54,721 nucleotides of DNA. Source: Oligoflexales bacterium (lineage in GTDB: Bacteria; Bdellovibrionota_B; Oligoflexia; Oligoflexales; JALZUQ01). The stretch spans positions 1-54,721 of the forward strand of contig JALZUQ010000042.1 in NCBI GenBank assembly GCA_023301465.1, written 5' to 3'. A program made the position numbers and the translations under genes. The first letter of the stretch is position 1; every line of letters starts with the position of its first letter. Shown one piece after another: positions 2,306 to 36,507 of the stretch. The notes beneath the pieces were generated by a model. The model was not told the DNA's origin and did no database searches. It saw only the letters and a list, made by a program, of their open reading frames with translations.

Positions 2306-2410
2306 GAGCCTGAATTTATAAGAATAAACACTTAGACCTTTATATATTGCTCTTGACAATTCGGGGTTCATAACCACATTACTACATGAGAACTTTCATG
2401 GAGAGAATAC

Positions 2411-3319
2411 ATGGCTCAAGATTATTACGATACTCTAGGCGTTCAAAAGAACGCATCTGATAAAGATATAAAGTCTGCATTTCGTAAACTTGCCATGAAG
2501 TATCATCCGGACCGCAACAAAGGTAACGCTGCAGCAGAAAAAAAGTTTAAGCAAATCAACGAAGCATATGCTGTTTTAAGTGACCCTCAAAAAAGAAAAC
2601 AATTCGATACTTTTGGTGCCGCAGGCTTTAACCAAAAATTCTCACAAGAAGATATTTTTAGAGGTGCAGACTTTTCTAATATATTTAACGAAATGGGCTT
2701 TGGAGGCGGCGGAGATGTCTTCTCAGAAATTTTTGGTGGCGGTGGAACTCGCGGAGGTTTTGGAGGTGGCAGAGGTTTTCAACAAAGACCTACAAAAGGC
2801 CAAGATGTAGAGTATGAGCTAACCATTAGCTTTGATGAAGCTTACCGTGGAGGCCAACGAGAGATTCAATACCAACTCGACAACGGCCAAAGGCATAGCC
2901 TAAAAGTAAAAATACCTGAAGGTGTTGCTACCGGAAAAAAATTACGTGTTTCTGGCAGAGGGTATCCTAGTCAATATAGTGGAGGAAAAGCTGGAGATTT
3001 ATTTATTTTAATCACGGTTGGCAACCACCCACAATTTCAACGCGAAGATGATCACATTATAAGTGAGGAATCTGTAAAGCTATCAACGATGATATTAGGA
3101 GGAAGCCACGAAATAAAAACTCCTGATGGTGATAAATCTATAAAAATAGCTGCACACATGAAATCAGGTACTAAAATAAGAATTGCGAACAAAGGTTTTG
3201 TGAACCCAAAAACAAAGGTACGTGGTCACTTCTACGCAATTATTAAGCCTTTTATTCCTGAAACTATTACGGCCGAACAAAGACAAATCATAGAGAGCCT
3301 ACAGGAATCTGGTTTGTGA
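2411..3319 (+). CDS. cbpA: DnaJ-class co-chaperone, CbpA-like (no zinc finger)
   Basis: Type II Hsp40 expected to stimulate DnaK ATPase and deliver clients in the cytoplasm. The J domain covers residues 4-70 with HPD at 32-34. A Gly/Phe-rich linker (about 85-125; GGGGDVFSEIFGGGG) follows, then the two-part beta-rich C-terminal substrate domain. There are no CXXCXGXG repeats, which separates it from DnaJ itself; 302 residues match CbpA. The upstream spacer has TTGACA at 2353-2358 but no clear -10, so heat-shock control is possible though not shown. SD GGAGAG precedes ATG 2411. It is not next to dnaK or grpE in this window. Confidence 0.85.
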   Translation: MAQDYYDTLGVQKNASDKDIKSAFRKLAMKYHPDRNKGNAAAEKKFKQINEAYAVLSDPQKRKQFDTFGAAGFNQKFSQEDIFRGADFSNIFNEMGFGGGGDVFSEIFGGGGTRGGFGGGRGFQQRPTKGQDVEYELTISFDEAYRGGQREIQYQLDNGQRHSLKVKIPEGVATGKKLRVSGRGYPSQYSGGKAGDLFILITVGNHPQFQREDDHIISEESVKLSTMILGGSHEIKTPDGDKSIKIAAHMKSGTKIRIANKGFVNPKTKVRGHFYAIIKPFIPETITAEQRQIIESLQESGL

Positions 3320-3468
3320 CAAGTTAAAACAGCACACCAGTATAGTTAGCAGCGATATAAAAAAGGATTAACAACTGCTGGTTTCGCCACTAATTTTAAG
3401 CCATTAAACTACTAACACCACACAAAAAACTATCATCTAAGATGTTTGTTTGACTTCAGAAACCCTCT

Positions 3469-3750
3469 TTGTTAACGAAAACTTCATCTGAAAAAGCACA
3501 TCATAAAAGACTACTTAAAATCTTTCATAAAGATTATCTTGAAGAGTTAAAATCAGCACACCCACTAATAGAAGACCAAAAAGTCCATGATATCACTCTT
3601 GCATATGTTGATTGTGATAAAATGCGGAGTCCAACACTAGCATCTCAAGCAGAACTATCTGACTTTGAAGACAAGGAATTAGAAAGTTTTGAATTATCAC
3701 AATCTTTGATAGAAACTCATAAAATGAATTCCTCGGCTGATATAAAATAA
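3469..3750 (+). CDS. small hypothetical protein, possibly frameshifted at its end
   Basis: A 93-residue charged, helical protein with no recognised domain, starting at TTG 3469 and without a clear SD. The stop at 3748-3750 falls in TATAAAATAAAAAAT. A -1 shift inside 3741-3750 would fuse it to a further highly charged, helix-like stretch (KSELDRTRREIRLKYAQTRL) ending at TAG 3849-3851. Whether that is real depends on related sequences. The gene is weakly supported: no strong start, no family, and AT-rich surroundings. Confidence 0.4.
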   Translation: MLTKTSSEKAHHKRLLKIFHKDYLEELKSAHPLIEDQKVHDITLAYVDCDKMRSPTLASQAELSDFEDKELESFELSQSLIETHKMNSSADIK

Positions 3751-3929
3751 AAAATGTTAAATCTGAACTTGACCGAACGAGAAGAGAAATCCGTTTAAAA
3801 TATGCTCAAACACGTCTGAACTTATTAAAAAACCGCCCAAAATTTCTCTAGCGAGCTTTGGAGGTGTTTGCGTTTTATGGGGCTCTAGGAACTTCTACTA
3901 AACAATAAATATCTAGCCATATTTGAAAT

Positions 3930-4769
3930 TTATTTTTCACCCTTGAACTGATCAATCACCATATAAACACTACCAATAGCAATTTCTGCTTTCACTTGAA
4001 TTAATGGTCGATGAGCATGCTCAACTGCAACCCAAGCATAAACATCTCCCTTTTGTTGCAAACGATCACCAATAGATGTCGTCAGTTTTAATTTTACAGT
4101 TTTAAGCTTACCAAGAGGCGAATCAACATATTCAAAACCTAGAGGCATCACATCAAACCACCAGTTTTTTTCTGATGTAAAAACCAATCCGCGTTTTCGT
4201 TGTCCGATTTTATAATCTTGAGACCTCATCCAATAGACTGCTGACACAGCATCCATTGCTCCATGCTGAAGCTCATAACGCCTAGTTTTATGATGCTTGC
4301 CTTTTCTCGTTACCTTTACTTCAACATCACAACGGTTATCATCAAAAACCAAAGTTTTTGTTTGTAAGAACCTATCTCTTAATAACGCTCCTTCATCTTG
4401 GTCTATAAAAAACCATGAAGCCCCAAAATCAACAGCACGAGAAATTGATCTGACTCTATCTTGGGCAACAAAAACCCACTTATACCAAGAACCAGTTTCT
4501 GCGAATGCGTCAATAACCCTTTGCCAATGCCCATTATAAAAAAATGGCTTACCCACATTCATGGTCCCGAAACCTGCGTGTATTCCCATATAGCTAATCT
4601 TATAAATTGCTCTTTCACCGCTTTTAAACGGGACTTTTTTGAAGACCTGATTCTTGTCTATGGCTGGAATCGCTAGTTCTTGCTTGCACTTTGCTTCTAC
4701 TAGCACTGGTATGCTGAAGATGATAACTACCAACGCTTCAAGCCACCAATGTGTGCTTTTTTTGATCAT
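3930..4769 (-). CDS. DUF3108 domain-containing exported protein
   Basis: Exported protein with an N-terminal hydrophobic signal segment (ALVVIIFSIPVLVEA) and cleavage plausible after VEA. The rest matches what I know of DUF3108: an opening segment (FKSGERAIYKISYMGIHAG), aromatic-rich beta strands and a closing strand of type AWVAVEHAHRPLIQVKAEI. Members are periplasmic or outer-membrane-associated proteins of unknown biochemical role in proteobacteria. SD AAGGCGA lies upstream of the ATG. It is transcribed divergently from rpsA, sharing a 220-bp promoter region. Confidence 0.75.
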   Translation of the reverse strand: MIKKSTHWWLEALVVIIFSIPVLVEAKCKQELAIPAIDKNQVFKKVPFKSGERAIYKISYMGIHAGFGTMNVGKPFFYNGHWQRVIDAFAETGSWYKWVFVAQDRVRSISRAVDFGASWFFIDQDEGALLRDRFLQTKTLVFDDNRCDVEVKVTRKGKHHKTRRYELQHGAMDAVSAVYWMRSQDYKIGQRKRGLVFTSEKNWWFDVMPLGFEYVDSPLGKLKTVKLKLTTSIGDRLQQKGDVYAWVAVEHAHRPLIQVKAEIAIGSVYMVIDQFKGEK

Positions 4770-17544: not shown

Positions 17545-17599
17545 ATTTAATCATGTGCGATAAATGATTTTATCTGAAAAGACAGGATCTTCTAAGCTC

Positions 17600-19006
17600 A
17601 TGCGGTCTATGATTTTTATTATTTTGATATTCATTGCTTATACAAACTCCGGCTTTGCAGAGAACACAAACCAAACGAGAGTGAGATCATTTTTATCAAG
17701 TCAAAATGAAGTCCGCATTTGGATTAGTAATTCTTACCGATACGGGCATTACTCTCACACGCTGAGCGTGATGGACGAACTTAGGCGTATAGGGTTTAGT
17801 GGTTTATTCAGGGTTATATATGCTAATCATATGAAAACATATGAACATGAGTTTATGCAAGTATGGAAAGACCACTTAGATAAATTAAAAACTTTGTTTC
17901 CTAAGTTTGATTCAAGCAAAGAAATACAAGTAATTGAACCGGGACTAGTATTAGAATCAATTATCCACTTTCAAAAAAACCACCATCCTAACATTGATTT
18001 GAGCATTTCGGGAGGAATTGACGGCAATTATGTCAACCTGCATTCTTTACTTCAATCTGAGTTTTCACTGGTTTTAAACCCTCATGGATGGGAATTCCCA
18101 TCACATTTTGCAACAAACCGCACCCTATTTTTCAGAAAAAAATTATTAAATAAAATACACTTGATGCATACCCCAATCAACACAGTGAAAACCAAGCATC
18201 TTGATCAATTTGTCTCAAATCAATACGGTGAGCAAAAACCTTTTATAAAACCCCTCACCTATTTACTAGAAAGTTCGGACATACAAAACCTTGGTTTTAT
18301 GCCTTGGTACGGAAGTGACAGAGATTTTGATATTCCTCTATTCTTGAAGTACTTATCAGACACCCAAACTCAATTACACCGACAGTTTCACAAAGGAATT
18401 GTCATTCCAGTACTAGACCACTCTCTTAATATGACAATGGATAGCTTTGGAGAGGCAAGGGTAGAGACAATAAAATTAACAGACCGTTTATTACAGCAAA
18501 AAATTCAACAGTTAAAACCGGGAAATATTCTCCTAGTCCATGTTGGTGAAGTACCTAAAAATATATTTGAAGAGTTTTATAAAAGAGCAAATTTACCACC
18601 AGTCATTTCCGGAAAAAATTCAAAAAGTATTTGTGATCAGATAGGAATTCCATATATTTCTGCTATTGATCTTAATCTTGAAAGATCTAGATACAACCCT
18701 CAAGGTTTCTTCACTTCGAATTATGGAAGACAACTCATTCATGTTGCTCACGTAAATCACCCTGATTTTTTTTACAAATACTTAACGGGACAAAAAATCA
18801 TGGATTCATTCTGGAGTAATTTCCTGGACCCTAATAGCTCTTTAATGAAAGACGCAAAGAAAAGAGCTAAGAATTTAAAAAAACCAAGATACAATAAAGT
18901 CTATCAAGCCATTTTGCAAACCATCCCCATCATCGATGCTGGGAAATCTTGCCAAATGAGCTTTATTCAAAGAGTGAAATCTCTCCCTTACTTAAGGAAT
19001 TTATGA
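17600..19006 (+). CDS. secreted protein, possible GT-B glycosyltransferase-like fold
   Basis: A signal peptide (MIFIILIFIAYTNSGFAEN) precedes a 440-residue mature protein with no firm family. The opening EVRIWISNSYRYGHYSHTLS and the later segment RANLPPVISGKNSKSICDQI recall the N- and C-domain motifs of GT-B glycosyltransferases, but the resemblance is weak and an exported nucleotide-sugar enzyme would be unusual. Near the C-terminus lies GKSCQMSF (Cys 18th from the end), part of the signature seen in several exported proteins here. ATG 17564 is in frame but has no SD. The next gene starts one base after its stop. Confidence 0.6.
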   Translation: MRSMIFIILIFIAYTNSGFAENTNQTRVRSFLSSQNEVRIWISNSYRYGHYSHTLSVMDELRRIGFSGLFRVIYANHMKTYEHEFMQVWKDHLDKLKTLFPKFDSSKEIQVIEPGLVLESIIHFQKNHHPNIDLSISGGIDGNYVNLHSLLQSEFSLVLNPHGWEFPSHFATNRTLFFRKKLLNKIHLMHTPINTVKTKHLDQFVSNQYGEQKPFIKPLTYLLESSDIQNLGFMPWYGSDRDFDIPLFLKYLSDTQTQLHRQFHKGIVIPVLDHSLNMTMDSFGEARVETIKLTDRLLQQKIQQLKPGNILLVHVGEVPKNIFEEFYKRANLPPVISGKNSKSICDQIGIPYISAIDLNLERSRYNPQGFFTSNYGRQLIHVAHVNHPDFFYKYLTGQKIMDSFWSNFLDPNSSLMKDAKKRAKNLKKPRYNKVYQAILQTIPIIDAGKSCQMSFIQRVKSLPYLRNL

Positions 19007-19007
19007 A

Positions 19008-20294
19008 ATGCTAAAAAAATTACACCCCCTATTTTTACTTGTTTTTTTAGTCAGCTCTCCATTAAGAGCCCAATGGATCAATGCAGAAGAAGCGTTTCCT
19101 GACTTTTATCAAACAATTTCAAACACAAACGGCATCACTGCTGAAATGCGAGATGAGTTCTTTTCTTTTTGGACAACAAAAGAATCACGTTTATTAGAAA
19201 TCGCTATCTCGAAAGTAGAAAAAAGCAGAGAAGAGCATGGGAATTACACTACAGCAAAAAACATAAAAAAATATACCGGCCCTATATATGCAGTATTTGG
19301 AGAGCTAGAAATAGCAGCTTGGGCTCGTTACCGCTTCAAAAATCAACCAAAAATATCTATCATGAACGCTTGGGAAATCGACCAAATAAAAAAAATAAAA
19401 GAGACACAAAACAACATACCTGATGGGGTTATATATGAGATAAACGATGGTTTTGTAGAAATCATCAACGTACTAGAATCTAAAATGGGAAGCACGCTTT
19501 TTAGTCGAAAACAAGCAAAAGGTTATTTCCGAAGTTGGAAAAATAACGGGATTTATCTTTTCAATAAAAAAGGAAAAATCCAACAATTTCAACCAAACGA
19601 TATAAAATTTAACATAGGCTTCAAATTAAAAAGACTAATACCTATCACACATATGACAATTAATGAGTTTTTAGAATATATTGTAACAATACACTCTGAA
19701 AAAAAGCCTCAAGACTTTGGTCAACAACTACAACTAAGCTTTGGAACCAAACAAGCAAAAGAGATCACCCAAAATCATGGTCTTAAAATATTTGAAATTG
19801 ATAATTCCCCAAACAGCAAAAAAGACAAAGACCAACCTAACAACCAATTAGAAAAAATTGATCAAAAAAATCTCAGTAAAAAAATACAAAAATGGTTTTG
19901 GAGTCAAAGAAACAATGACAACCCACAATGGCCTAAAACAGGATTACACTTTGATGACATTTCTGGAAAAGCACTAAAAAGTAGTATGGAAAAAATTGGA
20001 AATAAAGCAAAAATCTTCATATATCACATGTCATTAAGAACAAAATATTTTCTTATATCAAAAAACGCTTTGCCTCACTTAGATTTAATCGAACAAGAAT
20101 TGATCCACGCCGATACAAAAAGCCATGGATTACTCGAAACATTTAAAATATACTTTAGTTTGTTCGAGGAGTCAGATGGTAGTTTCTCTCAAAAAGCTCG
20201 CTCAGGAAAAAAAGTAAAGGCAAACTATGAAAGACTATATATAGCTGATGATGGAAAAAGTTGTCACGAGCATTTTAAATTACCAACGAATTAA
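19008..20294 (+). CDS. secreted protein with PD-(D/E)XK-like motif set
   Basis: A clean signal peptide (LFLLVFLVSSPLRAQ) is followed by about 405 residues. Residues 98-170 follow the order of PD-(D/E)XK nucleases: a helix with GELEIAAW (Glu99/Glu101), PDG with Asp139, then a strand ending in ESK (Glu157, Lys159), and a helix with KQAKGYFRSW (Gln169). This is pattern recognition, not a family match. The only mature Cys is in DDGKSCHEHF near the C-terminus. SD AAGGAA lies eight bases before the ATG, and it is in one operon with the gene before it. Its end overlaps convergent fabH by 15 bases. Confidence 0.6.
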   Translation: MLKKLHPLFLLVFLVSSPLRAQWINAEEAFPDFYQTISNTNGITAEMRDEFFSFWTTKESRLLEIAISKVEKSREEHGNYTTAKNIKKYTGPIYAVFGELEIAAWARYRFKNQPKISIMNAWEIDQIKKIKETQNNIPDGVIYEINDGFVEIINVLESKMGSTLFSRKQAKGYFRSWKNNGIYLFNKKGKIQQFQPNDIKFNIGFKLKRLIPITHMTINEFLEYIVTIHSEKKPQDFGQQLQLSFGTKQAKEITQNHGLKIFEIDNSPNSKKDKDQPNNQLEKIDQKNLSKKIQKWFWSQRNNDNPQWPKTGLHFDDISGKALKSSMEKIGNKAKIFIYHMSLRTKYFLISKNALPHLDLIEQELIHADTKSHGLLETFKIYFSLFEESDGSFSQKARSGKKVKANYERLYIADDGKSCHEHFKLPTN

Positions 20295-23707: not shown

Positions 23708-25537
23708 TTAAAGATTTCGTTTTTTAAAAAGAGATAAACAATCAGTGTTTTCTGTCTGAATCATGGCTTGGTTATCTTTAGCTACTTCCATCTCACCCAT
23801 GCCTTGCATATAAACTCCACGCAAACTCTCAGACTTAATCGCGTGGTTCATTACATCTATGACACGTATAAACGGGACTTGCGAAGCTTCAATCCCTAGA
23901 TCAGAAGAAATCTGTTCGGCTTTTTCTTTTGACGCCAACCATTGAGAATCATTATTCACGATTAACATGGAGCGGTTTTGGTTGACTACCGGCTGAAGAA
24001 AAACTTCCCAATGCGACAAACCAAACAATTGAACACGGTCAGAATCAGAGCTCCAATCCATCCCATTTGCTTCAAATGTTGCAGCATAAAAGGTTTTTAA
24101 TGGATTTGATTTTTGCATCTTAAATGCACCTTGGGTTACAATCTCTTTTGCTAACCCAGCTTGCAGCATTCTTTTAAAACTTGAAAGCCCTACCGGAAGA
24201 TAACCTATATCTAATGCATGTTTTCGAATATAATCAACTGCGGCAGCATCTAAATCTTCTGGGTAAAAAACAGAAAGAGACTCATCTGAATGCTCAAAAA
24301 TAACAATATTTGAAGCTTTCACGGTATCAAATTTAATTTTCTTTGGAACTTCAAAGTTTTTTGCACTCATCTTTGATAAATGTTCCAACACATCAGCTGT
24401 ACCCGCACAGCTTGAATCGTAAGGCTCAACAGGTCTTTGCCTATCAAGGTATTCATTTAGTTCGTCTTCCCAATACTCAAGATCATCATCTGACCATGAC
24501 GTCAAAATATCCCGAGAAAAATCTGCAAGTGCATGTGATTGCATGGCCCTCGCATCGACAAACCCTTCTTCATAGATTATTCGTCTATCATCAATATAAT
24601 TACTGCCAACATAATGATTGTAATCACCATTGTTTTGCACAAATGATATGGAACCAGTAATCCAATCCCATTCATTTTGTTTATCTAAATCCGAGAATTG
24701 ACGAGGGTCATCAAACATAACATCTGAGATGAATTTTTGATCGACAAGGGACTCCAAAAAAACTTTCATTTTAGAAAGTGGAGCTTTACTAATTTCCTTT
24801 ACAACACTAACAAGATTTATATTACTTTCTGGATCTACAAAATCACCAGATGAAACTAAAATGACTACAGATTGTAAATACGCAATATACGACTCTACAA
24901 ATCCTGGATACATGTTGACTGATTCACTGTATTTAAACATAGAAAAAATATTATTCGACTGCAAATTTTTTAACACATTTTCTAAAGCCAAAGTGAATTT
25001 GGCAGTCAACGGAACTCCAGATATTTCTAGATAATAGAAAAGATTAATAATTTTATTGACACTATCCTCAAATAAATTACCACTATAAAAAACATATTTC
25101 TGACGGATTTTAGAACCACGAAATGACATTACCTGACTATCCCACTCACTTTCTGATGCAATCATAATGTCTTCAACAGCATTACGAAGATAAATAATAA
25201 AATAATTTTCTGACAAAGTAATAGTTTTTGAGTCTGAATAATCTATTTCTGTTAAGTTTTGAACGAGATTAACACCATCCCTAGAAAATAGTTGTTCCAA
25301 AATGTGTGCTGGAACACTTTGCATCAATAGCAATTGATTTTCTGAAGGGATCAACATGATCTGCCCTACTGTCAAAGACAAAACAAAATCAGTAGGGTCC
25401 TCTATGGAGTTCAAAGCAGTCAGGGCTTTATCAGAGTCCTTTTGTTGAATAAGCGTTTGATAAGTTGAATTGTAATTATTAGCATACAGAGCCTGAGAAA
25501 CCAGTATGAATGACAAAGAAGTTAAAATTTTCCACAT
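23708..25537 (-). CDS. secreted orphan protein, paralog of the 27163-29004 product
   Basis: A signal peptide (ILTSLSFILVSQALYAN) precedes a 590-residue mature protein of no recognised family. It aligns along its whole length with the product at 27163-29004, sharing LSLTVGQIM near residue 57, ASESEWDxQVMSFRG, FDDPRxFS, a QGAF segment, HWEVFLQP versus NWEVFLQP, and the end TDCLSLFKK. The conserved core therefore defines a family of at least two. The C-terminal Cys is tenth from the end. ATG 25537 with GAGGG upstream is preferred over TTG 25543. It follows the 455-residue orphan gene by about 40 bases and is probably in one operon with it. Confidence 0.75.
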   Translation of the reverse strand: MWKILTSLSFILVSQALYANNYNSTYQTLIQQKDSDKALTALNSIEDPTDFVLSLTVGQIMLIPSENQLLLMQSVPAHILEQLFSRDGVNLVQNLTEIDYSDSKTITLSENYFIIYLRNAVEDIMIASESEWDSQVMSFRGSKIRQKYVFYSGNLFEDSVNKIINLFYYLEISGVPLTAKFTLALENVLKNLQSNNIFSMFKYSESVNMYPGFVESYIAYLQSVVILVSSGDFVDPESNINLVSVVKEISKAPLSKMKVFLESLVDQKFISDVMFDDPRQFSDLDKQNEWDWITGSISFVQNNGDYNHYVGSNYIDDRRIIYEEGFVDARAMQSHALADFSRDILTSWSDDDLEYWEDELNEYLDRQRPVEPYDSSCAGTADVLEHLSKMSAKNFEVPKKIKFDTVKASNIVIFEHSDESLSVFYPEDLDAAAVDYIRKHALDIGYLPVGLSSFKRMLQAGLAKEIVTQGAFKMQKSNPLKTFYAATFEANGMDWSSDSDRVQLFGLSHWEVFLQPVVNQNRSMLIVNNDSQWLASKEKAEQISSDLGIEASQVPFIRVIDVMNHAIKSESLRGVYMQGMGEMEVAKDNQAMIQTENTDCLSLFKKRNL

Positions 25538-25579
25538 ATACAATCTACCCTCAATATTTAGAACATAAAAATAAACTAT

Positions 25580-27162: not shown

Positions 27163-29004
27163 TTAGAGCCGGTTTTTCTTTTTAAATAAGGACAAACAAT
27201 CGGTTTTATCACTCAGCTCCAGCATTTGAGTATCCCTTGTCATTTCTAACCCTTCTCTACTATAGAGTCCTTCATCTGGGTTATCTTCTTTAATGATATT
27301 ATTCATCGCTGTCACTATTTGAGATAAAGGGACTTGTCGAACATCTTTTCCCATTTTGTGAGCAAGTCTAAGAGCTTTTTCTTTTGACGCTTCCCACTGT
27401 TCATCTGTCTCTATCATCAAAATAGAACGTTCTTTGTTTACTTGAGGTTGAAGAAAAACTTCCCAGTTTGACATACTAAACAACAAAAGACGGTCAGGGC
27501 TTTCAACATCCCAATGAATACCGTTCGCCTCATAAGCAGCGGAGTAATGTATTTTGGAAGGCACAGAATCTTGAACCACAAAAGCACCCTGGGTTGTAAC
27601 ACGTGCCCCCCACCCTAATTGCAAGAGCCTCTTAAAGCTACCCATGCCAACCAGATAACTCCCATAATTAACTGCATAGTCGTGCATATAATCACTTGCG
27701 GCTACGTCTAAATTTTTTGGATAATATATAGTTTGAGACCCATTAGCATCTTTAAAAATAACAATTTTTGCAGCATCGATTGTATCAAACTTGATTTTGA
27801 TCGGTTTTTTAAAATCATCATGACTTAGCTTTGATAGTTTAAACAAAACATCGGCCGTCTCAGATTGATGTGAGTCGGCTGAAATGTACCTAGGTTTTTC
27901 AAAGTAATGTTTCAAATTTCTTTGCCAATGGGATAAATGTCTATTATCCCACTTCGAATGAAGTGCTTCTCGAAGATTCCCAAGTTCAATCGACATTTCC
28001 ATTGCCGCGCCTTTGAACTCTGTATCCAGATTCATTCTATGTGCATCTGTTGCATTATCTGTTACATCATAATCTTTAGTAGACATGCTCTCCATAAAAT
28101 CATGATAGTCACTAATAGACTTAAAAAGAAAATCCCACTCATCTTGCTCATTGAGATAAGAAAATTCACGAGGGTCATCAAAAGATATCATTTCAATTTT
28201 TCTATTTAATGAAAATTCATCTAAAAAATTAATCATTTGAAGCGTAGGTGCCATGAAAGCATTTTTCGCATATCGTATAAAATCAAAAGTTGACTGTTCA
28301 TCTGGTAAATTTCCAATTAATGCAAGAACATTTATGGACTGAATATAAGAAATATAGGCATGTATAAATGAGGGGTAAACATTAATAGAATGAGACTTCT
28401 GGAACATAGACACAATAGAATCTTGTGACAATGCTTGCATTGTCTTTTTTATACCTTCTAGAAAATCACTCGTAATAGGCATTTGACTTAACTCTAATTG
28501 CACAAATAAATCAGTCATTTTATCTAATGCTTCTTTTACTAAATTACCTCTGTAAAAACGATATTTACCGCGAATAAGAGGCCCACGAAAACTCATGACT
28601 TGTGGATCCCACTCACTTTCAGAGGCTATTTGTATATCTTCAACTAAATCTGCCATAAGACCTAACAAAAAACTTTCACAGATCGTTAATATTTTAGGTT
28701 GTTTGAAATCAATAGAGACAAGGTCTTCAAAAATATCAATCCCATCTCTTTCAAACATGAAATCTACAATATAGAAAGGAACTGACCTCATAACTATTCT
28801 TTGAGACACAGAAGGCAGCTGCATGATCTGCCCTACTGTTAATGACAAAATAAAATCTGCTTTATCTTCAACAGCGTCTAAAGCGTCAATGGCAGCCATT
28901 TTCACATTTGCTTGAGAAAGTTGATGATAAATTTCACCGTAGTCTTCTGCTAAAAGTATTTGAGAGGGTAATGACAGTAAAATGAAAAGTATTAACGTAC
29001 GCAT
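27163..29004 (-). CDS. secreted orphan protein, paralog of the 23708-25537 product
   Basis: A clean signal peptide (LILFILLSLPSQILLAE) precedes a large mature protein of about 595 residues. No family is recognised, but full-length similarity to the 611-residue neighbour is evident, with long matching blocks (SLTVGQIM, ASESEWDPQVMSFRG, SFDDPREFSYL, WEVFLQP, TDCLSLFKKK). The divergent central part (about 300-380) looks like a variable linker. The Cys in TDCLSLF is eleventh from the end. It is the first gene of a three-gene minus-strand set; the 230-bp gap to the next gene may hold its own promoter. Confidence 0.75.
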   Translation of the reverse strand: MRTLILFILLSLPSQILLAEDYGEIYHQLSQANVKMAAIDALDAVEDKADFILSLTVGQIMQLPSVSQRIVMRSVPFYIVDFMFERDGIDIFEDLVSIDFKQPKILTICESFLLGLMADLVEDIQIASESEWDPQVMSFRGPLIRGKYRFYRGNLVKEALDKMTDLFVQLELSQMPITSDFLEGIKKTMQALSQDSIVSMFQKSHSINVYPSFIHAYISYIQSINVLALIGNLPDEQSTFDFIRYAKNAFMAPTLQMINFLDEFSLNRKIEMISFDDPREFSYLNEQDEWDFLFKSISDYHDFMESMSTKDYDVTDNATDAHRMNLDTEFKGAAMEMSIELGNLREALHSKWDNRHLSHWQRNLKHYFEKPRYISADSHQSETADVLFKLSKLSHDDFKKPIKIKFDTIDAAKIVIFKDANGSQTIYYPKNLDVAASDYMHDYAVNYGSYLVGMGSFKRLLQLGWGARVTTQGAFVVQDSVPSKIHYSAAYEANGIHWDVESPDRLLLFSMSNWEVFLQPQVNKERSILMIETDEQWEASKEKALRLAHKMGKDVRQVPLSQIVTAMNNIIKEDNPDEGLYSREGLEMTRDTQMLELSDKTDCLSLFKKKNRL

Positions 29005-32570: not shown

Positions 32571-34619
32571 CTACTCTAAACTTAGAAACTCTTTTGTCGT
32601 GTAAACCTGAAAAGCCTCTGCACAACTCATAGAGTTATCATCATCAACCTTTAATAAAGTCTTTGCTAATCCTTTATTTCTAACGAGTGCACGTGTCGTT
32701 AAAGACCTTTCGTCTGTTGTTACAACCATATCCAATTGAGACTTATGGAGTTGAATGCTCTTCAATTTTTTACGTAGCAAGTCATCATTAAAACCTTCGA
32801 TTTGAAGATTTTCAACCAACCCTAGTGACCAGTCTAAATAAGCTCCGCGGTACCCAAAAAACAAAGGAGAGAAATCTGGTGAGTTCTTTTGGATTTCTAA
32901 AGTACTTGCTTGCACGAGTTTCTTAGATAATCCATGTGCTCCTCTAGGGTCTGGCTCAGCTGCAAAGTAGATTCTATCGGGATTGCATTCTAGAAGAAGG
33001 TTTTGCATGTTCTGTTTATCATTTTCAGAAAACGCCTCAACTGAGGGGATCCCTCTTCTTTTATAAAAATCTGCATTAAAGAAATGAATTTTGTTCACTC
33101 CTAAAAACATATCAGCATTGCGAGCTTCATCTTCTCGAACAAGCCTCCTTGCCATTTCTTCTATATTGTCATCTTTTTCATCTTTTTTAAAATTATGTTG
33201 AGAAATTTCATTTAGGTGCGTTTGGTACTGAGTTTCCGTTTCCCTCACAGCATTCGCACCACTCGTCACCACTAAAACATAAACTTCATTTCCATTGGCA
33301 ACAAGTTTTTGAATCGTTCCTCCCATACTGATAACATCATCATCTGGGTGAGGAGAGACAATTAAAACCCTTTGATTTTTTGGAAGTTTAGATTTAATCG
33401 CTTTTTGTGTTTTATTCTTAAATTCTTGTTTTTTTTCTTCTAATAATGAGTATTCACTTTGAGGTTTTGACCCTAAGAATTCTAACCAACTTTTTTTGAA
33501 ACCAATTTTCTGAAGGTTTTTAGTTCGGATGTCATCTAATGGAATACCTGTAGACTCTATGATTTCTTGAAAAGCCTGATATAAAATATCATCGCTCATG
33601 GATTCTATGTCATCTCTTTTCTGTGAGTCGACTCTATCTCCTTGATAGCTCTCGTGCCATGGTCTGATCGAAAGTAGAGAAGCAGCTTCTTCATCAAAAT
33701 AAAATAATAAGCTGTCGGCTGTTGTATCTTGCAGGTATGAACTCGTAACATTTTCGTTGATAACTCCTTCAGCACTCCAATACGCTGAAATTCTTTTATC
33801 TTCTCCATTTGCAGCTACGGCAATCTTCTTAGAAAAATACAATATTTCATATAAACCAATGGTGATTGCTTCAGTAGGTATATTTAAGGTTTCTTGCTCT
33901 GTAATCACCCCTCTCTTAATTAAAGAGTTATAACCAAGAAAACCATGAAGAGCTCTTTTGATGGTATGATCAGCTAAAGCAATGATTCTTGTGGGATCCA
34001 TCGACTTTGAGCCTGACTCATTAAATCCAACATGGCTACCTTCGTAGTTTGCTAAGTCAATGACAGAATTTCCAGTATTATTGACAATGGGTGTTGTTCC
34101 ACCAAGACCCAAAGTCATTAGATCAAATTTTTTGTACTTACTTTCTGATAGCCAATTATTTAATATATTAAGTGAGTGAGACAGATTTTGTTCTTCAGTC
34201 ATATTTTCTAGCATACCATGCATAAAAGTATTTTCTGGCTTAGGAGCTCGGCTTGGATCAATGTCACGCATAGGCTTAAATAGAAAATACTCCATATAAA
34301 ACCAATAGTTCATCAAACTATCTTTGGGTAATCCAAGATAATTATCTAAATTATAAAATCTAACCTCACTCAAATCTAAAGAACTATCGTTTGTATAAGG
34401 CCCATTTACAAATGCGGTATATATCTTCTCAAATGTGCCACCCGTCGCTGATCCGATCAAAGCTTTAGGGTTCTCTCGCACTGTGTCAGCAATCAAATCA
34501 GCGTAATTTTTATGAAGGTTTGAGACTTTTTGATAAACATGAATATCATGGTCTGTTTGACCTTGAGCGAACAACCCACAAGAAAAAAACACCACGGTTA
34601 AAATAAAATAAAATCTCAT
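32571..34619 (-). CDS. exported NagB-like / LmbE (PIG-L) deacetylase fusion
   Basis: A signal peptide (MRFYFILTVVFFSCGLFAQ) precedes an N-terminal half resembling glucosamine-6-phosphate isomerase/deaminase: ATGGTFEKIYTAF, YNLDNYLGLP, HVGFNESGS, IPTEAITIGL. The C-terminal half is a zinc-dependent PIG-L/LmbE N-deacetylase with VSPHPDDDVISMGG and DPRGAHGLSKK. The same domain order is known in bacterial NagB-LmbE fusions, but export is unexpected for a sugar-phosphate enzyme. The NagB catalytic DGH is replaced by GSH, preceded by an insertion. SMSCAEAF lies near the C-terminus. ATG 34619 with AGGTGA is the better start. The likely role is on extracytoplasmic amino sugars. Confidence 0.8.
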   Translation of the reverse strand: MRFYFILTVVFFSCGLFAQGQTDHDIHVYQKVSNLHKNYADLIADTVRENPKALIGSATGGTFEKIYTAFVNGPYTNDSSLDLSEVRFYNLDNYLGLPKDSLMNYWFYMEYFLFKPMRDIDPSRAPKPENTFMHGMLENMTEEQNLSHSLNILNNWLSESKYKKFDLMTLGLGGTTPIVNNTGNSVIDLANYEGSHVGFNESGSKSMDPTRIIALADHTIKRALHGFLGYNSLIKRGVITEQETLNIPTEAITIGLYEILYFSKKIAVAANGEDKRISAYWSAEGVINENVTSSYLQDTTADSLLFYFDEEAASLLSIRPWHESYQGDRVDSQKRDDIESMSDDILYQAFQEIIESTGIPLDDIRTKNLQKIGFKKSWLEFLGSKPQSEYSLLEEKKQEFKNKTQKAIKSKLPKNQRVLIVSPHPDDDVISMGGTIQKLVANGNEVYVLVVTSGANAVRETETQYQTHLNEISQHNFKKDEKDDNIEEMARRLVREDEARNADMFLGVNKIHFFNADFYKRRGIPSVEAFSENDKQNMQNLLLECNPDRIYFAAEPDPRGAHGLSKKLVQASTLEIQKNSPDFSPLFFGYRGAYLDWSLGLVENLQIEGFNDDLLRKKLKSIQLHKSQLDMVVTTDERSLTTRALVRNKGLAKTLLKVDDDNSMSCAEAFQVYTTKEFLSLE

Positions 34620-34744
34620 AAAATCACCTATAGAATATCTAGGTGTCGAGGAATAACTGTATCTCACTGAAGTTTCAAGAGAACTTTTTAAATTTTCACC
34701 AACAAAAACAGCTAGTTAGTATAAACCACCTTTCGGCCCTTCCC

Positions 34745-35093: not shown

Positions 35094-36413
35094 TCATAAA
35101 CCGCATTTCGTAAGTCTGGTTTCTGGGTTTTCAAACTCAGCTTCACTACAAACCATTGCTTTAGGAAGATAGTCTCCCTTGTACATAAGCGTATCTGCAA
35201 AACTTTGATCTGGAATTAAGTTTCTGTAAGCCACCCCAACCGTCGCTTGATTATCTGCACGATTATCAGGAACAAAATTATAACCTAGGCCTTCAACAAT
35301 TTCTTGCGTTTTTGCAGAGGTTTTTCCAAATACCGCTACCACATTTCCTTCTGCATCTTTACGTACAATGGAGTCTGCGAGACATGCTAGAGTTTCGTTT
35401 TTAGCAAAATTTTGATAACACAACGACCAGTACCGAACCTGAGGGTCTACTCCACTGTCAGAAACAGAATTAGGTGCCTTGAACTTTATGACAGTAACAG
35501 AGTCATCAAAAAGCTTATTCGTACCTACAACATAATCAGCAATAGCCGAATTACCACCAAGCCCTAAGTTATTAAACCAGCTGGGAGCAGGTTCAAAATC
35601 ATACTCAGTTTTATGCCTAATTCCACGAAATATCGTCAATACAGACTGTGGAATAGAAAAAGCTCTATCAATATAAGGTTCTGGGCAAGCTTTTGGTTCA
35701 CCAGTATCTGGGTCATAAGCAAAAACATCAGGCATGTCTTCTTCTAAGGTGAGGTCTTGTAAGTCTGTTGGAACATACACTCTATAAAACATCGAGCCTT
35801 TTTGTCTTATTAATAAAGGCGGTGCCGGCATATCTAAATTTGCAGTTCCTTCGATGTCTGGAACATCTGCTTCTTTTAAATAGATTTCATATTCTGCATT
35901 GGCGTAATCTGAAGGTGGGGTCAAACTAGACTGACTGAATATTTGAAAATCTGGAGCATAGTCCACTTTCGCTTGAAGAGCACCTTCATAACTCTCAAAA
36001 CTCACAAAACGAGCCGAAGGCACCTTACCTTTTATTTTAAAAACAAAACGTTGGGTACGCGTTCTCTCGTAAGTAAATAAACCATAAGCAGCAACTGTAT
36101 CACCTGTAAAAAATTTTGGGGTAAATGGATCTACCGAGAGCTGACTTGTTTCTACAAAGTTTGCAGAACAATTATTTTCAGCTGTTTCTTCTTTATATTT
36201 AGATTCACTGGGTATGCTAGAAGGTAATTCTGTTGAACCGGTAATCGTTTCAGGGTCTATTGGACTTACAGATGGATCAGGATCTGGGGTCAATGGATCT
36301 GGTGTTACAGACACCGTATCTGATGAATCAACATTTTCTCTCGTAGCTTGTTGCTTTTTTTTACAACTCGTCATCAAGACAAGAAAAACAGAAACGAAAA
36401 TCAATAATCTCAT
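35094..36413 (-). CDS. large putative lipoprotein
   Basis: The signal ends in VLMTSC, a good lipobox, followed by KKKQQ. A Pro/Asp/Ser-rich linker of about 55 residues (DPLTPDPDPSVSPIDPET) leads to a 340-residue domain rich in beta segments and Tyr. Several cysteines are present (NNCSANF, KACPEPY, SLCYQNF, LACLADS, MVCSEAEF, TKCGL) and could be disulfide-bonded. No family is recognised. SD GAGGGAT places the start at ATG 36413 rather than TTG 36425. It is monocistronic. Confidence 0.7.
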   Translation of the reverse strand: MRLLIFVSVFLVLMTSCKKKQQATRENVDSSDTVSVTPDPLTPDPDPSVSPIDPETITGSTELPSSIPSESKYKEETAENNCSANFVETSQLSVDPFTPKFFTGDTVAAYGLFTYERTRTQRFVFKIKGKVPSARFVSFESYEGALQAKVDYAPDFQIFSQSSLTPPSDYANAEYEIYLKEADVPDIEGTANLDMPAPPLLIRQKGSMFYRVYVPTDLQDLTLEEDMPDVFAYDPDTGEPKACPEPYIDRAFSIPQSVLTIFRGIRHKTEYDFEPAPSWFNNLGLGGNSAIADYVVGTNKLFDDSVTVIKFKAPNSVSDSGVDPQVRYWSLCYQNFAKNETLACLADSIVRKDAEGNVVAVFGKTSAKTQEIVEGLGYNFVPDNRADNQATVGVAYRNLIPDQSFADTLMYKGDYLPKAMVCSEAEFENPETRLTKCGL

Positions 36414-36507
36414 TTTATCCCTCAAAAACCATTTTGATCTTATGGTTTTATCGGTTGAATTGGTAAAACCATAGAACTACAGGCAATAAGTATTCAATAA
36501 TATGAGG

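Follow-up and report, generated by a model that had tools for sequence, protein, structure and literature searches.

A NagB-LmbE fusion with a signal-peptide-like leader in an Oligoflexales bacterium and its clade of predicted exported relatives

In this study, a gene in a 54,721-nucleotide stretch of DNA from an Oligoflexales bacterium (contig JALZUQ010000042.1, hereafter the window) was investigated. We observed that its product carries the NagB-LmbE architecture with both folds, an N-terminal leader, membership of a distinct clade and a conserved set of active-site residues (Table 1). It is very likely an exported member of this NagB-LmbE clade, and our preferred reading, to which we give a probability of about one in two, is that it is a Sec-exported two-domain amino-sugar enzyme. 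In such an enzyme, the LmbE/PIG-L domain would act as a zinc-dependent deacetylase on an N-acetylamino sugar, while the NagB domain would bind the (phospho)amino sugar and, in most members, isomerise and deaminate it. The protein would act outside the cytoplasm, in the periplasm, at the surface or, in host-associated relatives, possibly in a host compartment. We infer export itself, the order from deacetylation to deamination, and the class of substrate. NagB enzymes are known as cytoplasmic and belong to phosphosugar metabolism; if bacteria lacking NagA have a conserved exported version, then either amino-sugar phosphates are handled outside the cytoplasm or the NagB fold has acquired a new, non-phosphorylated substrate.

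Table 1. Features of the fusion gene, its upstream signal and its protein product in the window.
Feature	Residues	Position	Strand	Basis or remark
NagB-LmbE fusion gene, predicted exported		32571..34619	-	682 aa; intact 682-codon frame, ATG at 34619 to stop ending at 32571, stop within coordinates
Shine-Dalgarno-like AGGTG		34625..34629	-	5 nt before ATG
Signal-peptide-like N-terminus, MRFYFILTVVFFSCGLFAQG	1-20	34560..34619	-	hydropathy; leaders in all clade members
NagB (glucosamine-6-phosphate deaminase) fold	about 25-320	33660..34547	-	profile match, alignment, Foldseek 2bkv
Clade-specific insert before the DGH-equivalent	about 174-193	34041..34100	-	alignments
GSHVGFNE motif	194-201	34017..34040	-	DGH position = Gly194
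LmbE/PIG-L zinc deacetylase fold	about 415-675	32595..33377	-	PF02585, Foldseek
PHPDDD	423-428	33336..33353	-	metal ligands His424 and Asp427, general base Asp426
PRGAH	558-562	32934..32948	-	metal ligand His562 kept; Arg559 at the substrate-binding His position

The protein matched the NCBIfam model for the NagB-LmbE fusion (PRK02122 / NF002557) over residues 27-673 with an E-value of 1e-64, its domains running from NagB to LmbE in one chain in both this match and Foldseek. The score of 218.8 bits is below the curated cut-off of 384, as are those of three clade relatives (202-314 bits). Similarly, the glucosamine-6-phosphate deaminase model TIGR00502 gave 69.7 bits, below its cut-off of 236.9, and Pfam Glucosamine_iso gave 21.8 bits, below its cut-off of 27, which three clade relatives exceeded (36-79 bits); a search with PF01182 alone missed the fusion gene in its own genome. 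The LmbE half scored well above the cut-off for Pfam PF02585 (PIG-L), at 68 bits vs 28.2 (E 1.5e-18). An AlphaFold (AF2) model built from an alignment of 42 fusions reached a mean pLDDT of 78.7 and a pTM of 0.78, and with Foldseek its NagB half matched B. subtilis NagB (2bkv) at a TM-score of 0.89 (of target) and its LmbE half matched archaeal diacetylchitobiose deacetylases. The frame, the PRK02122 match and these folds bear out the description of an exported-looking NagB-LmbE fusion that was given in the first-pass annotation.

The GC content of the gene (0.358) and its GC3 (0.288) are the same as those of the neighbouring genes, and composition thus gives no support to a recent transfer into this genome. 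A misbinned contig is likewise not supported, as LeuRS is found together with a relative of the neighbouring lipoprotein on a contig of another genome of the same family (G001). That neighbour (35094-36425, minus) is a lipoprotein-like protein of 439-443 aa with no Pfam match; the genome encodes two further paralogues of it, and six more genomes of the order also have members. The downstream neighbour of the fusion gene, a FabG-like dehydrogenase, shows no sign of a functional link. Elsewhere in the window, two exported-looking paralogues of 611 and 613 aa (23708-25543 and 27163-29004, minus; 41% identical) and a pair of exported-looking proteins encoded next to each other (480 and 428 aa; 17564-20294, plus) have no Pfam match, and a perfect 21-bp tandem repeat (1-99, 4.7 copies) coding for ESEQATL heptads is cut by the contig end.

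The window protein begins with MRFYFILTVVFFSCGLFAQGQ, a signal-peptide-like N-terminus. Over 12 residues, its hydropathy peaks at 2.46, compared with a maximum of 1.91 and a median of 0.97 among 76 ordinary (PRK02122-type) fusions, which were scored with permissive start choices, the leader being judged by hydropathy alone. These ordinary fusions start without a leader (0 of 76 reach the hydropathy of the clade), whereas the four nearest relatives of the window protein all have a hydrophobic leader directly before the domain. In the AlphaFold model, the leader forms a helix at residues 2-13 with pLDDT below 50 at residues 1-5 and 7-20, and the first NagB strand begins directly after residue 20. 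Residues 1-20 look like a Sec signal peptide, judged by these features, and export looks real; because four relatives from an unrelated group of small-genome bacteria also have the signal, it appears to mark a small exported branch of a known fusion. The first-pass annotation had named homologues that begin after the leader as an argument against export, and such homologues exist in the form of the ordinary fusions, while the nearest relatives have leaders of their own, a mixed outcome that leans towards export. That the protein is a cytoplasmic PRK02122-type enzyme, with a hydrophobic N-terminus created by the choice of start codon, is very improbable: ordinary fusions do begin in the same region without a leader, but a good ribosome-binding site lies at the ATG and the leaders recur in all four relatives.

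With regard to distribution, a genome-contig scan with the single window protein as query gave no match, and an alignment-based scan of GTDB genomes, which returned 80 fusions, nearly all of the ordinary type, then found an alphaproteobacterial MAG protein (L077) far above the other matches (31% identity, E 2e-76). The order of this MAG comprised 10 genomes of 1.1-2.0 Mb, and the fusion was present in four of them (G383, the source of L077, and G388, G390 and G392), with carrier genomes of 1.7-1.8 Mb; the G390 fusion, split over two contig ends, was counted as one gene. In G390 and G392 (L164 and L166), the fusion lies divergently from murJ and trpS. No full fusion was found outside that order among 385 genomes drawn from the class. 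The window protein (P0001) and the four alphaproteobacterial fusions formed one clade in a full-length tree with 16 ordinary fusions (support 100/100), as well as in trees of the NagB half (89/97) and of the LmbE half (98/100), G390 being left out of the latter. All five members have in common an extended stretch following the lid (IDxxRAP) and an insert after the TR motif. The window protein sits on a long branch (3.2-3.3 changes per column, in the NagB tree and the full-length tree), and L077 is on a long branch too, making the branching order within the clade unsure.

In the phylum of the window genome (58 genomes, E 1e-30), the one other exported-looking NagB-LmbE protein came from G013, and since its two halves branch elsewhere, it most likely formed independently. 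Several NagB/PIG-L proteins of about 815 aa (L063-L066 and L075) were rejected as close relatives, as they represent a third, separate and cytoplasmic-looking architecture, and the best plasmid matches were ordinary Bacteroidota fusions, several annotated nagB. One further locus (L069, G145:C80:12500-17500) has an 816-codon frame in which a NagB domain follows a hydrophobic leader and no LmbE motif was seen, suggesting that exported NagB domains may occur elsewhere. Our literature search found no paper on NagB-LmbE fusions, and the exported clade looks like a so far undescribed variant of the known fusion.

Within the NagB half, the residues equivalent to Asp72, His143, Glu148 and Lys208 and the TG[GS]T loop (E. 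coli numbering) are all present in the window protein, its ligands being Thr59-Gly60-Gly61-Thr62, Asp92, His196, Glu201 and Lys275. This agrees with the first-pass annotation, which had noted that the Asp of YNLDNYLGL (Asp92) and the His and Glu of GSHVGFNE (His196 and Glu201) are kept. In S. mutans NagB, GlcN6P is bound through Thr38, His130 and Lys194 (PMC8369159), and these correspond to Thr62, His196 and Lys275 of the window protein, all kept; the position of E. coli Arg172 is not clearly kept in the alignment of the exported clade. An insert of about 15 residues had also been described before the usual DGH; every one of the five clade members has it, though it is about 19 residues long in the window protein by comparison with E. 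coli NagB and about 14 in the relatives. The usual DGH does read G-S-H, as reported, but the altered chemistry deduced from the lost Asp does not follow. All five members of the exported clade have Gly at this position. Ordinary fusions have Thr, Asn or Ser there, and the NagB enzymes of B. subtilis (Asn-Gly-His) and S. mutans (Asn-Ala-His) have Asn, indicating that this branch as a rule lacks the Asp and that its absence is no sign of new chemistry.

The LmbE half contains SPHPDDD at residues 422-428, of which PHPDDD had already been noted, and it retains the complete H-x-D-D plus H metal site and general base (His424, Asp426, Asp427 and His562), matching the LmbE zinc-site motif HXD1D2+H (PMC4101496). 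In MshB, His144 is the substrate-binding His, and its Ala mutant retains <=1% activity (PMC4101496). At this position the window protein has Arg559 and L077 has Asn, the remaining three relatives having His, so that at least the LmbE specificity is probably altered in the window copy. The change had escaped the first-pass annotation, which flagged the NagB half only. By alignment, the main catalytic residues in NagB and LmbE are intact in the less diverged clade members, the variable DGH Asp excepted, as in the orthologues of G388 and G392. We put activity of both halves across the clade at even odds and regard it as doubtful in the window protein itself.

A different explanation is an exported deacetylase with a retired NagB, in which only the LmbE half would be catalytic, acting for instance on periplasmic N-acetyl sugars such as those of peptidoglycan fragments, and the NagB half would persist for sugar binding or as a structural element. 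L077 has lost the catalytic His and phosphate loop of its NagB half (GGRMGAIE; TGQE), suggesting that deamination is not essential across the whole clade; conservation is higher in the LmbE half, which has shorter end branches than the NagB half and FAAExDPxGAHGLS common to the window protein and L077, and it resembles diacetylchitobiose deacetylase in structure. Nevertheless, the window copy and all but one of the four relatives retain Asp72, His143, Glu148 and Lys208, and the damaging-looking change, Arg559, falls in the LmbE half of the window copy, leaving this explanation rather unlikely. It is less likely still that the protein is decaying or non-catalytic in the window organism, the fusion being an evolutionary remnant. 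The long branches of the window protein and L077, Arg559 and the Glucosamine_iso score under its curated cut-off would fit decay, but the frame is intact with a ribosome-binding site, the fold is confident, and most catalytic residues and all metal ligands are kept.

The preferred reading of a Sec-exported amino-sugar enzyme must be weighed against the fact that the NagB fold normally requires a 6-phosphate sugar and that we know of no source of such a sugar outside the cytoplasm for these bacteria. This leaves three options: an unphosphorylated substrate, a NagB half that only binds, or action in a host compartment. Also against the preferred reading are the NagB losses in L077, Arg559, the unclear Arg172 position and the NCBIfam scores, all of which, for nagB as for the fusion model, are under the cut-offs. 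The first-pass annotation had proposed a periplasmic or extracellular enzyme on amino sugars, for example from peptidoglycan; an exported enzyme with amino-sugar folds is supported by our data, while for the peptidoglycan substrate location is the sole argument.

Regarding the pathway, NagA gave no match in any of the six genomes with exported fusions and matched in all 14 control genomes; the fusion is the sole PIG-L protein in each of the six carriers, and no separate NagB-type protein was found in the window genome, though these absences are not proof, as the carrier assemblies are partly incomplete. The lack of NagA together with a sole PIG-L protein is expected if the fusion replaces NagA plus NagB. 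MurQ, with matches that were weak or below cut-off, was rejected as a pathway hint. Beside the L077 fusion, proteins with an F-box-like N-terminal motif were observed (114-2093 and 2309-4573), hinting at a host-associated lifestyle. The fusion might accordingly be imagined as an exported substitute for NagA and NagB that scavenges amino-sugar phosphates outside the cytoplasm of the bacterium, such as in the cytosol of a eukaryotic host, and yields fructose-6-phosphate, acetate and ammonia. The kept phosphate ligands, the lack of NagA in every carrier genome, the alphaproteobacterial genomes of 1.7-1.8 Mb and the F-box-like starts near L077 would agree with this; however, nothing points to an intracellular window organism (2.77 Mb), and a Sec leader alone reaches the periplasm only, so we consider it quite improbable. 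The broader proposal that the exported lineage deacetylates and deaminates an N-acetylamino-sugar(-phosphate) outside the cytoplasm in place of NagA and NagB, with host-associated carriers tapping the host hexosamine pool, is unlikely on present data.

Comparatively, the closest known systems to the predicted exported clade are the PRK02122 / NF002557 fusions, named 'glucosamine-6-phosphate deaminase-like protein' and found in Bacteroidota, Planctomycetota, Gemmatimonadota and others, which share with the window protein the domain order, overall length, both folds and a non-Asp residue at the DGH position, but have no leader in the 76 members checked, lack the clade inserts and keep the His in DPHGTH. 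The G013 protein, from the same order as the window genome and about 757 aa from its presumed ATG, also combines a leader, NagB and LmbE; unlike the window protein, its NagB half groups with E. coli-type NagB, its LmbE half branches elsewhere and the linker is long. The monomeric NagB enzymes of B. subtilis (2bkv) and S. mutans (2ri1), solved as glucosamine-6-phosphate deaminases, the latter with GlcN6P, are similar to the NagB half in fold, ligand set and a non-Asp residue at the DGH position (Asn, against Gly194 here), whereas they are single-domain proteins with neither a leader nor the insert before DGH. On the other hand, archaeal diacetylchitobiose deacetylase (8bgo, 3we7) and other LmbE/PIG-L enzymes such as MshB and BshB share the fold and the His-x-Asp-Asp plus His site of the LmbE half and carry no NagB fusion, and in MshB and BshB the substrate-binding His is retained at the position of Arg559.
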